From Robiginitomaculum sp. (GTDB lineage: Bacteria; Pseudomonadota; Alphaproteobacteria; Caulobacterales; Maricaulaceae), in the NCBI GenBank assembly GCA_002733495.1, contig NVVV01000063.1, forward strand, positions 62,001 through 126,000: a stretch of DNA of 64,000 nt. Reading direction: 5' to 3'. The position numbers were made by a program, and so were the translations under genes. This document shows, one piece after another, positions 2,913-45,213 of the stretch. Every line of letters starts with the position of its first letter. Position 1 is the stretch's first letter. The notes beneath the pieces are model-generated. The model searched no databases. It was not told the DNA's origin and saw only the letters and a list, made by a program, of their open reading frames with translations.

Positions 2913-4196
2913 ATGACTATTCAGACTCTTAAAGAAAAATGGGCAACAGTCCTAGAACACAAGGACTTAGAATCCATTGGCAATGCCGCAAAAAGTGGTG
3001 TTATCGCTCAGCTTTTGGAAAATACTGAAACTGCATTGAAAGAGTCCACTTCGTGGGATAATACTTCTTCATTGCTAAACGAAGAACCAACTAACGCCGC
3101 GTCTAACGGACAGATCACTAATTATGATCCAGTTCTTATCTCGCTTGTTCGTCGTTCTATGCCAAACCTTATCGCATTCGATATTGCTGGTGTTCAACCA
3201 ATGACTGGCCCGACTGGTTTGATCTTTGCATTGCGTTCTAAATATGCTGTTGATCCTGCCAACACTGCCTCATGGAATGAAGCAATGTATAACGAGTCCG
3301 ACACAGACTTCTCAGGCGCAGGCACACATGCTGGTGTAACTGGTACTGCCGCAACTGCTAATACTGGTACTGGTATGACTACTGCCGCTGCCGAAGCACT
3401 TGGTGACGGTACTGCACCTGATTTCGCTGAAATGTCTTTCAGTGTTGAAAAAATCAGCGTTGTTGCTAAATCACGCGCATTGAAAGCTGAATACACAACT
3501 GAGCTTGCTCAAGACTTGAAAGCAATTCACGGCCTAGATGCTGAAACTGAATTGTCTAACATCTTGACTGCCGAAGTTCTTTCTGAAATCAACCGTGAAC
3601 TTATCCGCACAGTTTACACAACTGCAACCGCTGGTTCACAAGATGGTGTTGCGACTGCAGGTACATTCGATCTGGATGTAGATGCAAACGGTCGTTGGTC
3701 AGTAGAGAAATTTAAAGGCTTGATGTTCCAAATTGAACGTGAAGCAAATAAAATTGCTAAAGACACCCGTCGTGGTAAAGCAAACATCATCATCTGTTCT
3801 TCAGATGTTGCATCCGCTCTACAAATGGCTGGCGTTCTAGATTACACTCCAGCGTTGACTAACAAATTGAACGTTGATGATACTGGTAACACATTTGCTG
3901 GTCTTTTGAACGGTCGCTTTAAAGTTTATATTGATCCATATGCAGGCGGCAATTACCTGGTAGTTGGTTATAAAGGCGCAAGTTCTTTCGACGCAGGTCT
4001 TTTCTATTGCCCATACGTGCCGCTACAAATGGTACGTGCTATCGGTGAAAACAGCTTCCAACCTAAAATCGGATTCAAAACCCGTTACGGCATGGTTGCT
4101 AACCCTTACTCTTCAGGTGCAACTGCTTCTGACGGTAGCCTAACAGCTGGCGCGAACATCTATTATCGCCGCACACTGGTTTCTAATATTCTTTAA
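2913..4196 (+). CDS. 23: Major capsid protein (gp23-like)
   Basis: Contains YTTELAQDLKAIHGLDAETELSNILTAEVLSEINREL, a T4 gp23 hallmark block; synteny. Confidence 0.97.
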   Translation: MTIQTLKEKWATVLEHKDLESIGNAAKSGVIAQLLENTETALKESTSWDNTSSLLNEEPTNAASNGQITNYDPVLISLVRRSMPNLIAFDIAGVQPMTGPTGLIFALRSKYAVDPANTASWNEAMYNESDTDFSGAGTHAGVTGTAATANTGTGMTTAAAEALGDGTAPDFAEMSFSVEKISVVAKSRALKAEYTTELAQDLKAIHGLDAETELSNILTAEVLSEINRELIRTVYTTATAGSQDGVATAGTFDLDVDANGRWSVEKFKGLMFQIEREANKIAKDTRRGKANIIICSSDVASALQMAGVLDYTPALTNKLNVDDTGNTFAGLLNGRFKVYIDPYAGGNYLVVGYKGASSFDAGLFYCPYVPLQMVRAIGENSFQPKIGFKTRYGMVANPYSSGATASDGSLTAGANIYYRRTLVSNIL

Positions 4197-19863: not shown

Positions 19864-20490
19864 TTATAATATTTTGCATTTGGGGCCATGCCATCGAGTA
19901 TGGGCATTCACCGACATACTCCTACTACAATGAGCACATTCAATTATGGAAAGTTTTTTGCCTATATGTGCATCACGCATTTTCTTTCGAGTATCACTAG
20001 ATGCTTTTTTGCCATACATAGGATTATTCTGACCCAACATTCGCTCAGAATGTTTAACCTTTCTTTCGTCTGTCCAATCTGGTATTTCTCTGACAGCATT
20101 TAAGATTTTCGCTAGTTTCTTTTGATGCTCATTTGATTTCGGTTTACGCATTTTCTGTCTAGTCTCATCACTCAAGGTATATCCACCACGGTTGTACCAC
20201 ACATCACCTCCATTATAAAGATTAAACCATTTATCGGAGGTAGCAGCACTAACCTTATTAAGAAATTTAGTTTCCCAAGAGACGGCAGCTTTCTTTGTTT
20301 TGAATCGTTTACGGACTTCAAACTTAAACTTGTCAATACCCTCTTCGGCTATCATATTTGTTACGATACGTGATGAACTAAAGTAGGTTATGCCTAAATC
20401 CCTAGGGTGACAGTTTCTTGCATATTTAACACCATAATACTTTACTCCAGATGAAATATGTGTTATTATATATGTAAATGGTACAGTCAT
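19864..20490 (-). CDS. GIY-YIG homing endonuclease with NUMOD3 repeats
   Basis: FTYIITHISSGVKYYGVKYA GIY-YIG core; HSERMLGQNNPMYGKKASSDTRKKMRDAHIGK NUMOD3; antisense between dut and gp43. Confidence 0.88.
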   Translation of the reverse strand: MTVPFTYIITHISSGVKYYGVKYARNCHPRDLGITYFSSSRIVTNMIAEEGIDKFKFEVRKRFKTKKAAVSWETKFLNKVSAATSDKWFNLYNGGDVWYNRGGYTLSDETRQKMRKPKSNEHQKKLAKILNAVREIPDWTDERKVKHSERMLGQNNPMYGKKASSDTRKKMRDAHIGKKLSIIECAHCSRSMSVNAHTRWHGPKCKIL

Positions 20491-37142: not shown

Positions 37143-39353
37143 ATGCACTTATCAAATAGAGAAATTGACACTAAGGACCTTATGTCCCAAACGAAATTCT
37201 ATGAAGGATATTCTAGATGGGACCAAGACCTTAACCGATACGAGACTTGGGAAGAATCAGTCTCGCGCGTAATGAATATGCACCGAGTATTCTATAAAGA
37301 TAAAATGACGCCAGAGCTTTCGCTTCTTATTGATGAAGCGGAATCCTCATACAAATTACAATATGTTCTGGGTGCCCAACGTGCGCTTCAGTTCGGCGGC
37401 GATCAACTTCTTAAACATCACATGCGTCTGTATAATTGTACAAGCTCGTATGTTGATAGACCTGAATTCTTCGGTGAACTATTCTACATTCTGTTATGCG
37501 GCGCAGGGGCTGGTTTTTCAGTACAAACACACCACATTGCCAAGCTTCCTAATATTACACAACGAAAAGGCCAAGTAAAACAGCATGTGGTGGAAGATAG
37601 TATTGAGGGTTGGGCTACGGCTGTTGATATCCTTATGTCCTCATATTTCTATGGTGGTGGGAAACACCCAGAATATGCTGGTCGGAAAGTCTATTTTGAC
37701 TTGAGCTTGATACGTCCAAAGGGTGCCGAGATTTCTGGTGGGTTCAAAGCACCAGGGCCTGAGCCTCTTCGTCGAGCCCTTGATAAAATCGAATATCTTA
37801 TTCAAGGTCGCGTCCTTCGTGGTGAAACTAAATTACGTTCAATCGACGCCTATGACATAGCGATGTTCATTGCGGATTCAGTCCTAGCTGGCGGTGTTCG
37901 CCGTTCTGCTACCATCTGTCTCTTCTCTCCTTTAGATGGTGAGATGGCTAATGCGAAAATCGGTAACTGGTTCGACGAAAATCCACAACGTGCCCGTTCA
38001 AACAATTCAGCGGTCATTGTCAGAGATGAAATTACCCGCGATGAATTCTCAAAACTTATGAAAACGATTAAAGAGTTCGGTGAGCCGGGCTTTTATTTTG
38101 TTTCAAGTAAGGAACACTCTACGAATCCTTGTGTCGAAATTGGTATGTTTCCACAGATCGACGGCGAGAGTGGCTTTCAAGGCTGTAATCTAGCAGAGAT
38201 CAATGGCTCGAAGTGTACAACAATCGAAGAGTTCTATAAAGCGTGCCGTGCTGCATCCATTCTAGGTACATTGCAAGCTGGCTACACAGACTTCAAATTC
38301 TTATCTGACACAACTAAGAAAATCTTTGAACGTGAGGCCTTGTTGGGTGTATCGATCACAGGCTGGATGAATAATCCTGATGTTCTATTGGTTGCTGAGA
38401 ATCAACGAGACGGTGCAGAGATTGTTAATTCGGTCAATAAAATGGTCGCAAAACTTATTGGTATAAACCAAGCAGCAAGAACAACCTGTGTTAAACCTTC
38501 TGGTAATGCGTCTGTCTTGCTTCAAACCGCTTCTGGTATTCATGCCGAGCATTCGCCACGTTATCTACGTCACGTCCAATTGAACAAAGACAGTGAAGTG
38601 GCACAACTCGTAGCCACAAGTAATCCTTACATGGTAGAAGAAAGTGTTTGGTCAGAGGCCAAATCTGATTATTGTGTTGCGTTTCCTGTCATATCCAAAC
38701 CTGGGTCAATACTCAAGTCTGAAGTTATGGGCATGAATCTGTTACAGAAGGTGAAACTTGTTCAACAGAATTGGGTAGAAGCTGGTACAAATGTTGAATT
38801 GTGTGCTGATGAAGGCTTGCGCCACAATGTGTCTAACACTGTTCAAGTCCGTCCAGATCAATGGGAAGAAGTCGAAGAATACCTATTCAAGAATCGTTAT
38901 AGCTTCTCAGGCGTTTCGTTTCTTGCCGACTCAGGCGATCAAGATTTCAATCAAGCACCAAATGCTGAAGTCATGACCGAAGAAGAGATCGTTCAACGCT
39001 TTGGTGTAGCCGCTTTGTTTGCCTCAGGTTTGATCGTGGACACATACAAAGGTTTCGATAATCTATGGGATGCCACACGTATTGCTCAATCGGATAACAA
39101 ATCTTTCGGCGAAGTCTCTGATTTACGCGCAGATTGGATTAGACGGTTCAATAAGTTTGCCGAGAACTATTTCGAAAGCAACACAAAGAAGGCTGAATAC
39201 TGCCTGAAATCTGTGTATTATCTCCACAAGTGGACAAAGATACAACACAATCTGAAGCCTATTGATTTTAAATCAGAGTTGACATCGAAACGTTTCACGG
39301 ATATTGACACGATGGGTGCGCAAGCTTGTGTTGGAGGTCAATGTGAAATCTGA
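37143..39353 (+). CDS. nrdJ: Adenosylcobalamin-dependent class II ribonucleotide reductase (monomeric, NrdJ/RTPR-like)
   Basis: MRLYNCTSSYVDRPEFFGELFYILLCGAGAGFSVQTHHIAKLP; VKPSGNASVLLQTASGIH; C-terminal CVGGQCEI. Confidence 0.92.
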   Translation: MHLSNREIDTKDLMSQTKFYEGYSRWDQDLNRYETWEESVSRVMNMHRVFYKDKMTPELSLLIDEAESSYKLQYVLGAQRALQFGGDQLLKHHMRLYNCTSSYVDRPEFFGELFYILLCGAGAGFSVQTHHIAKLPNITQRKGQVKQHVVEDSIEGWATAVDILMSSYFYGGGKHPEYAGRKVYFDLSLIRPKGAEISGGFKAPGPEPLRRALDKIEYLIQGRVLRGETKLRSIDAYDIAMFIADSVLAGGVRRSATICLFSPLDGEMANAKIGNWFDENPQRARSNNSAVIVRDEITRDEFSKLMKTIKEFGEPGFYFVSSKEHSTNPCVEIGMFPQIDGESGFQGCNLAEINGSKCTTIEEFYKACRAASILGTLQAGYTDFKFLSDTTKKIFEREALLGVSITGWMNNPDVLLVAENQRDGAEIVNSVNKMVAKLIGINQAARTTCVKPSGNASVLLQTASGIHAEHSPRYLRHVQLNKDSEVAQLVATSNPYMVEESVWSEAKSDYCVAFPVISKPGSILKSEVMGMNLLQKVKLVQQNWVEAGTNVELCADEGLRHNVSNTVQVRPDQWEEVEEYLFKNRYSFSGVSFLADSGDQDFNQAPNAEVMTEEEIVQRFGVAALFASGLIVDTYKGFDNLWDATRIAQSDNKSFGEVSDLRADWIRRFNKFAENYFESNTKKAEYCLKSVYYLHKWTKIQHNLKPIDFKSELTSKRFTDIDTMGAQACVGGQCEI

Positions 39354-39501
39354 TATTGGAGAGTATTCAGTAGAGGCAGCACAGGATTTAGAAGCTCAAT
39401 ATGGCCTAGATATTGAGGCAGAGCTTTTGAAAATGCTTCAAGAAGAAATCGCTATAGAAATGGTCAAAGAAATAAAAGAGGGCCGCTCGGGAAAACTTTA
39501 A
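39343..39501 (+). CDS. Microprotein (52 aa, GTG start) resembling a helical segment of major capsid protein
   Basis: EYSVEAAQDLEAQYGLDIEAELLKMLQEEIAIEMVKEI vs gp23 EYTTELAQDLKAIHGLDAETELSNILTAEVLSEINREL. Confidence 0.65.
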   Translation: MKSDIGEYSVEAAQDLEAQYGLDIEAELLKMLQEEIAIEMVKEIKEGRSGKL

Positions 39502-39571
39502 GATCGAGTTCCATATAACAGTAGAAGCCTCATGCTAAATAGTATTGAGGCTTTTATTATGGGAGATTACA

Positions 39572-39994
39572 ATGTGGAAGTATCAGAACAAAGAGTTTAC
39601 CTCGGACGATATAGGTGATTATATCGGATTCGTTTATGTGATTGAGAACGTAAACAACGGCAAGAAATATGTCGGCAAGAAATTATTCAAAAGCACACGC
39701 AAATTACCACCACTAAAGGGCAAGAAACGCGCAAGAAAGAAAGTTGTAGAGACTGACTGGATGACCTATTATGGGTCAAGCGTGGAAACTATGGCTCTGG
39801 TAAAGGCCGAAGGTCCTGGGTGTTTTAAGCGTGAGATACTACACTTATGTCATATGAAGGGCGAGTTATCGTACCAAGAGCTGGTCGAGCAGGTGGAACG
39901 CAAGGTCCTATTGCGCGACGACTACTATAACGGCATAATCAATTGCAGAATCAATCATAAACACGTTAAGAAACTTTGGGAAAATAATTCTTGA
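39572..39994 (+). CDS. Seg-like GIY-YIG endonuclease
   Basis: IGFVYVIENVNNGKKYVGKKLF GIY-YIG core; DWMTYYGSS. Confidence 0.8.
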   Translation: MWKYQNKEFTSDDIGDYIGFVYVIENVNNGKKYVGKKLFKSTRKLPPLKGKKRARKKVVETDWMTYYGSSVETMALVKAEGPGCFKREILHLCHMKGELSYQELVEQVERKVLLRDDYYNGIINCRINHKHVKKLWENNS

Positions 39995-42996: not shown

Positions 42997-43593
42997 ATGC
43001 ATTACACAGTTTATCAAATTATGAATATCAGTAATAGTAAGATTTATATTGGATATCACCAAACGGAAAATCCCATGGATAATTATATGGGCTCTGGAAA
43101 ATATCTAGGTCATGCCAAAGCGAAATACGGTATGGAGAATTTCACTAAGAAAATTCTGTTTGATTTTGATAATCGCGAGGAAATGATATCCAAAGAAAAG
43201 GAACTCGTTAATGAGAATTTCATAGCGAGATCGGATGTTTATAATTTAGTCAAAGGCGGCAAAGGCGGCTTTACGACTGCCGCATGTGTCAAAGGTGGCA
43301 AAATCTCTGGAAATATACATAAGGTTAGAATTGAAACTGATAAGAAGTATCGGGTAAAACATATGGTAGCATGTGCGAAAAACATATATTCTATGGCTTT
43401 TCTGGGCAGAAATCATACAGACGAATCTCTATCTAAAATGTCGGGTCCAAGATTAGCCTCTAAAGGCAAAAATAACTCACAGTTTGGTTCAATGTGGATA
43501 ACAAATGGATCAGAGAATAAAAAGATAAAACGAGTTGACTCTATCCCAGAAGGATTCTATAAAGGTCGTAAGATTATAAAAGAAGAAATATGA
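42997..43593 (+). CDS. GIY-YIG homing endonuclease
   Basis: YTVYQIMNISNSKIYIGYHQT; NHTDESLSKMSG NUMOD3-like; C-tail KIKRVDSIPEGFYKGRK. Confidence 0.85.
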   Translation: MHYTVYQIMNISNSKIYIGYHQTENPMDNYMGSGKYLGHAKAKYGMENFTKKILFDFDNREEMISKEKELVNENFIARSDVYNLVKGGKGGFTTAACVKGGKISGNIHKVRIETDKKYRVKHMVACAKNIYSMAFLGRNHTDESLSKMSGPRLASKGKNNSQFGSMWITNGSENKKIKRVDSIPEGFYKGRKIIKEEI

Positions 43594-44942: not shown

Positions 44943-44971
44943 GACATTTTCTAGCCCTTAGTTTAATATGA
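44943..44971 (+). promoter_or_regulatory. Sigma70-type promoter
   Basis: TTGACA-17-TAATAT. Confidence 0.65.
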
Positions 44972-44997
44972 AGATAGACAATAAGGGAAATTGTAAA

Positions 44998-45213
44998 ATG
45001 ACCACTAAAGTAGAACAAGAACTTGAAAAACTTTACGGCATTGATCTTGCCATTGCTGTTCTAGAATACTTCGGCGAAAGCGTAATTCACCTTGTAGGAT
45101 TCGACGTGAAACAAGTCGTCGTTGGTTGTAAGTCGGAGAACGTGGCGTTTGATCTAAAATCCACTAAAATCGTGGAGAAGTGTGTCAAAGTCGCCCGCAA
45201 AAAGATCAAATAA
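44998..45213 (+). CDS. Small protein with LEKLYGID motif
   Basis: MTTKVEQELEKLYGIDLAIAVLEYFGESV; start chosen downstream of promoter -10. Confidence 0.55.
   Translation: MTTKVEQELEKLYGIDLAIAVLEYFGESVIHLVGFDVKQVVVGCKSENVAFDLKSTKIVEKCVKVARKKIK

Follow-up and report, generated by a model that had tools for sequence, protein, structure and literature searches.

The gp24 vertex protein of T4 is a diverged paralogue of the major capsid protein gp23 that has been kept as a separate gene. The T4 Gol peptide, the activator of Lit, is part of gp23's first quarter (PMC3014915), and Lit/Gol is, together with CapRel and staphylococcal Thoeris, one of the defences that sense the capsid (PMC9712102, PMC11312562, PMC3014915); of these, Thoeris reportedly recognizes the capsid protein as a hexamer. 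In yeast, the Ty1 restriction factor p22, which is a piece of Gag, inhibits the assembly of particles (PMC4599808). Here we describe a 52-aa open reading frame (ORF) of a marine, T4-like phage whose sequence marks it as a diverged piece of a major capsid protein (MCP) of the T4 superfamily, encoded on its own.

The nrdJ locus and the 52-aa reading frame

The window, that is, the whole stretch of 64,000 nucleotides that was analysed, has the gene content of a T4-superfamily phage, including gp23, a thymidylate synthase-like gene, the class II ribonucleotide reductase gene nrdJ and many tRNA genes, and its contig was binned with a 3.2-Mb bacterial assembly. The 52-aa ORF sits between nrdJ and a transcription terminator (Table 1), and the coordinates (39343-39501), plus strand, GTG start and length given for it in a first-pass annotation were borne out. 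Its GTG lies inside the end of the upstream nrdJ gene, with an overlap of 11 nt, and the GGAGG preceding it falls within the conserved C-terminal Gly-Gly codons of nrdJ. The terminator hairpin, a strong one, begins 19 nt past the end of the ORF and is predicted to end the nrdJ-microgene transcript. The next gene in the 3' direction is SegE-like, a conserved downstream neighbour of this slot that is found at most 2.5 kb from nrdJ in 44 of the 54 relatives with enough flanking sequence. The 52-aa ORF, at 39 kb, is thus outside the head-gene cluster, gp23 being located at 2.9 kb.

Table 1. Positions of the 52-aa ORF, its neighbours and gp23 in the window
Feature	Position	Strand	Evidence or remark
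gp23 major capsid protein, full-length homologue	2913..4196	+	Pfam Gp23 E 2.2e-142
nrdJ-like B12-dependent (class II) ribonucleotide reductase	37143..39353	+	phrog_367 E 4.6e-95; Pfam RNR-II insertion domain above cutoff
GGAGG Shine-Dalgarno-like site, 5 nt before GTG	39333..39337	+	sequence; comparison of nrdJ ends with relatives
52-aa microprotein ORF, GTG start	39343..39501	+	residues 7-44 homologous to gp23 193-230
Codons for gp23-like helix-turn-helix (ORF aa 7-44)	39361..39474	+	ungapped 18/38 identity; AF2 helices
Intrinsic terminator hairpin, then U-rich tail	39521..39557	+	81-nt fold -25.7 kcal/mol, z -5.2
SegE-like GIY-YIG endonuclease gene	39572..39994	+	Pfam SegE_GIY-YIG E 2.6e-35

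Several side observations were made in the same window. In phrog_447 and in many phage records the product of the SegE-like gene bears the name 'NAD synthetase', which looks like a misannotation that has been propagated. Two further ORFs, at 19864-20490 on the minus strand and 42997-43593 on the plus strand, resemble GIY-YIG homing endonucleases by eye. The stretch 42897-63118 holds 26 predicted tRNA genes on the plus strand, including a Tyr tRNA with the anticodon ata.

Relationship to gp23 and origin of the segment

Residues 7-44 of the ORF align without gaps to residues 193-230 of the phage's own gp23, with 18 of 38 positions identical (about 18 of 40 had been counted by eye) and a BLOSUM62 score of 87. 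Composition-preserving shuffles of the ORF (n=5,000) gave a mean score of 27.5 (sd 4.4) and a maximum of 54, corresponding to a Gumbel p of about 2e-8 for the observed value. Of the window's 1,386 stop-to-stop frames with a length of 25 aa or more, that of the 52-aa ORF matched gp23 best after gp23 itself (score 89, the next being 56). The ORF also matches the Pfam family Gp23 (PF07068) with an E-value of 1.2e-9 and 38.5 bits, passing the curated cutoff of 24.4 bits, and the major head protein family phrog_138 with an E-value of 7.7e-9; positions 153-190 of the 376 in the Gp23 profile are covered, and these only. Sequence matches in the PDB were confined to T4-type gp23 structures (best E 6.7e-5), and in the whole assembly gp23 and the 52-aa ORF are the only Gp23 matches. 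These comparisons place the sequence homology to the T4-superfamily capsid protein far above chance and bear out the resemblance that the first-pass annotation had read from the alignment, while the ORF falls short of the roughly 400-520 aa of a complete HK97-fold capsid protein. The counterpart of the segment in T4 gp23 is residues 269-307 of 521. Elsewhere in the window, an 81-aa ORF at 44968-45213 carries a weakly similar motif, ELEKLYGID (VEQELEKLYGIDLAIAVLEYF), with a score of 45; it has no tblastn match in the phage records and no profile match.

The predicted structures agree with the annotation's description of a helical segment. In an AF2 model of gp23 built from a 30-sequence alignment (mean pLDDT 60.6, a modest confidence), a helix at 196-206 is followed by a GLD turn and a long helix at 210-237, which we take, by analogy with the HK97 fold, to be the spine helix; segment 193-230 would hence take in the short helix, the turn and the first part or most of the long helix. 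Modelled alone, the 52-aa ORF is predicted to form helices at residues 10-20 and 24-48 (mean pLDDT 77), and the registration of the helix-turn-helix is the same in the two models. A Foldseek search of the PDB with the ORF model returned no match, a result that says little for a query of two helices.

The phage's own gp23 had been named as the source of the fragment, and this part of the annotation was not upheld. Out of 150 segments of other T4-superfamily MCPs, drawn from two clades, 143 score higher against the ORF than the own gp23 does. At the nucleotide level, the ORF and the own gp23 are 53% identical, codon positions 1, 2 and 3 matching at 21, 27 and 12 of 38, so that third positions are random, and only seven of the 18 identical residues share a codon. 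A recent duplicate of the own gp23 was therefore rejected, this gene being among the poorer matches and most codons not being shared, and an origin from it is not supported by the sequences. No other gp23 gene is a clear donor (the best matches at 71 of 114 nt), and a nucleotide search for a donor gave chance matches only. In 82 distinct MCP segments from two clades, 15 columns are invariant or nearly so, of which the ORF keeps 13 and loses H206 and I226; in addition, seven of its residues were never seen at those places in the sampled capsids, four of them at 224-228. The ORF therefore descends from a capsid protein of the T4 superfamily, but the split is either old or involves a lineage outside the sample. 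Overall, the picture of a stand-alone, translatable helical fragment of the gp23 type next to nrdJ stood, whereas the own gp23 as its source did not.

Distribution, start region and possible selection

The first-pass annotation had staked its reading on the ORF being conserved behind nrdJ as a gene of its own, and no such conservation was seen in the records searched. The 52-aa ORF is absent from all 80 IMG/VR loci whose nrdJ is 71-76% identical, no direct relative was confirmed in IMG/VR, and each of 34 gp23-bearing records in which a second Gp23 match was sought, several of them longer than 110 kb, has a single Gp23-family match. A tblastn search of 50,697 phage records matched 2,144 records, with no more than 2,146 places among them, and the annotated matches that were inspected were all capsid genes or hypothetical proteins, none being shown to be a stand-alone copy. 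Five degenerate DNA patterns were also designed for the ORF-like, mostly not gp23-like sequence; four found only unrelated proteins or chance frames, and the matches listed for the fifth were, apart from a permuted 146-aa ORF discussed below, nearly all capsid genes, either full-length or edge-truncated. The 52-aa ORF is an orphan at the nrdJ locus in the records searched, and sister phages of the window phage could exist.

The slot behind nrdJ carries different small genes in different relatives. A zinc-ribbon-like ORF with a CPxCG motif occupies it in 72 of the 79 relatives with enough flanking sequence. This ORF is about 44-61 aa long and is missing from the slot in the window phage; similar ORFs follow the ribonucleotide reductase small-subunit gene in the Kyanoviridae phage C48C1 (OQ984149) and precede a SegE-like gene in phage Melnitz-3.

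The start region of the 52-aa ORF is shared with the coding sequence of nrdJ, whose C-terminal end is a conserved GGxCEI motif. In many nrdJ relatives, the Gly-Gly codons yield a Shine-Dalgarno-like GGxGG and the Cys-Glu codons TGTGAA an out-of-frame GTG, the two occurring together, by a simple test, in 8 of 88 nrdJ ends. The GTG frame at the nrdJ ends of relatives mostly runs into a stop after a few codons (median 10), but in three relatives (L001, L016 and L017) it stays open for 144-163 codons and in two others (L008 and L027) for 56-100, with different downstream frames. In the window, the nrdJ end at 39320-39353 has the conserved GGxCEI codons holding the Shine-Dalgarno-like site and the GTG. 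The perfect Shine-Dalgarno site and GTG of the 52-aa ORF are thus partly a by-product of the nrdJ protein sequence, and because they lie inside conserved nrdJ codons they are weak and non-independent evidence of a selected gene. Given this start region, translation of the ORF is likely, and anything that lands behind nrdJ would seem to find a start already in place.

Neutral drift to the observed identity was simulated from six donors, the own gp23 and five others. A stop-free frame was retained in 35-46% of the runs, so an open frame over 38 codons says little, and the BLOSUM similarity of the replaced residues was not significantly better than under neutrality (P 0.05-0.40); stops and BLOSUM similarity alone therefore failed to separate selection from drift. 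The replacements introduce no new Pro or Gly, and their mean helix propensity is 0.32-0.37 kcal/mol as against 0.63-0.70 kcal/mol in neutral runs (P at most 0.0024 with each of the six donors), a measure that separates selection from drift only if the donor resembled the sampled MCPs. This helix bias favours selection for a helical protein; alternatively, the helix-forming residues could have been inherited from an MCP outside the sample, with a recent capture.

Possible roles and comparison with known systems

Our tentative reading, held at somewhat below even confidence, is that a captured capsid helix-turn-helix has been kept as a microprotein that is co-transcribed with nrdJ and acts by mimicry on gp23 or on one of its partners, a function that we infer. 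The fragment most likely came from some capsid gene other than the gp23 that the phage has now, and would have been retained as a helical-hairpin microprotein in the slot bounded by the stop codon of nrdJ and its terminator. Translated from the start region built into the last codons of nrdJ, it would be made together with the nucleotide-metabolism genes, and could bind the contacts of the same hairpin in unassembled capsid protein, that is, gp23 itself, its chaperonin or its scaffold, and so tune or disturb capsomer assembly of its own phage or of a co-infecting relative. Points in favour are the homology far above chance, the 13 near-invariant columns that are kept, the matching helices, the helix-biased replacements, the Shine-Dalgarno site with GTG, the terminator, and a second stand-alone Gp23-family fragment on an unrelated contig (see below); against it stand the lack of a relative with the ORF among the records searched, the start inside nrdJ codons, the drift-compatible frame and BLOSUM similarity, the modest gp23 model, and the chance that the helix-forming residues were inherited from an unsampled MCP.

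The main rival, somewhat unlikely in our estimate, is that illegitimate recombination, in which the adjacent GIY-YIG endonuclease perhaps had a part, left a piece of a capsid gene behind nrdJ, either from the phage's own ancestor or from a co-infecting phage. The piece would then be functionless debris that will decay and is translated only through the start supplied by the nrdJ end. The orphan status of the ORF against the 80 nrdJ relatives and the 34 gp23-bearing records, the built-in start region, the unsurprising lack of stops over 38 codons, the neighbouring SegE-like gene and the variable content of the slot are all in keeping with such debris, but the retained capsid columns and the strong helix bias of the replaced residues argue against it, and the low nucleotide identity with random third positions speaks against a recent copy of the own gp23.

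An unlikely variant is that the captured hairpin has acquired a new, non-capsid use, for instance as a small partner of the co-transcribed ribonucleotide reductase in the place of the usual zinc-ribbon-like ORF. That ORF holds the same slot in most relatives, the overlap with nrdJ permits translational coupling, and the MCP-invariant H206, I226 and N/D227 are gone; however, the 52-aa ORF is unrelated in sequence to these zinc-ribbon-like ORFs, and the residues it keeps are those conserved in capsid proteins. A narrower form of the mimicry, which we regard as quite unlikely, is that the microprotein poisons or tunes assembly through its helix-turn-helix and targets its own phage's capsid less than those of co-infecting relatives, because the own gp23 is among the poorest matches; it would then be a phage counterpart of Ty1 p22. 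Very unlikely is a decoy role against an MCP-sensing host defence, in which the free helix would take up the sensor and leave it untriggered: capsid-sensing defences such as those introduced above do exist, but Thoeris reportedly senses hexamers, Gol maps elsewhere in gp23, and a fragment produced ahead of the capsid itself might set the sensor off instead of blocking it. A Gol-type EF-Tu-binding peptide or Gol/Lit decoy is likewise unlikely given the position of the segment in T4 gp23. Finally, a chance likeness of an acidic amphipathic helix of non-coding or unrelated origin is extremely improbable: the segment is helical and Glu-rich and also weakly matches phrog_4074 (unknown, 90 aa; E 0.023, no member found for comparison), but the shuffle scores and the Pfam match weigh against it, as do the retained non-helical GLD turn and invariant AQDL.

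Returning to the captured hairpin, the T4-superfamily MCP gp23 (PF07068, phrog_138) is one of the closest known systems, with 38 homologous residues, the same predicted helix-turn-helix and the common pattern EYxxExAQDLxAxxGLDxExEL. In contrast to gp23, the ORF has about 9% of the length, lacks the N-arm, E-loop, A-domain and the rest of the P-domain as well as H206, I226 and N/D227, and is not in the head-gene cluster. The 146-aa ORF mentioned above (L263:4559-4999; IMGVR_UViG_3300036770_005835, a 50.7-kb contig, G728) stands alone outside any head cluster on a contig unrelated to the window and matches Pfam Gp23 with 79.3 bits. It carries a strand and the same helix-turn-helix (profile positions 135-195), followed by an earlier capsid piece (22-59), in permuted order. 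It is longer than the 52-aa ORF, has the extra strand and the second gp23 stretch, and shows no close sequence tie to it beyond the capsid region; it may be a second stand-alone Gp23 fragment centred on the same segment, an assembly error being possible, and suggests that fragments of this gp23 region can occur as separate ORFs.

Partial capsid-gene paralogues are a known kind, whereas a phage stand-alone MCP fragment gene in a metabolic operon is without precedent in the freely accessible literature searched, in which no stand-alone gp23 fragment gene was found described. If expressed and selected, the 52-aa ORF would give a phage just such a separate gene. T4 gp24 differs in being a full-length structural protein and not a fragment. 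The Gol peptide is likewise a short gp23 stretch, with an activity of its own, but is a different segment and has no separate gene. Even if the ORF is debris, the locus still points to the conserved end of nrdJ as a built-in start region for sequence landing behind it; if it is expressed and selected, it would offer a 52-residue tool to probe the contacts of the conserved AQDLxAxxGLD hairpin during gp23 folding and assembly, and a way to ask whether phages compete through capsid-fragment interference. Ty1 p22, a separately expressed fragment derived from a capsid gene, provides a works-like model for such interference with assembly, with no homology to the 52-aa ORF and with a function that is established for p22 and proposed for the ORF.
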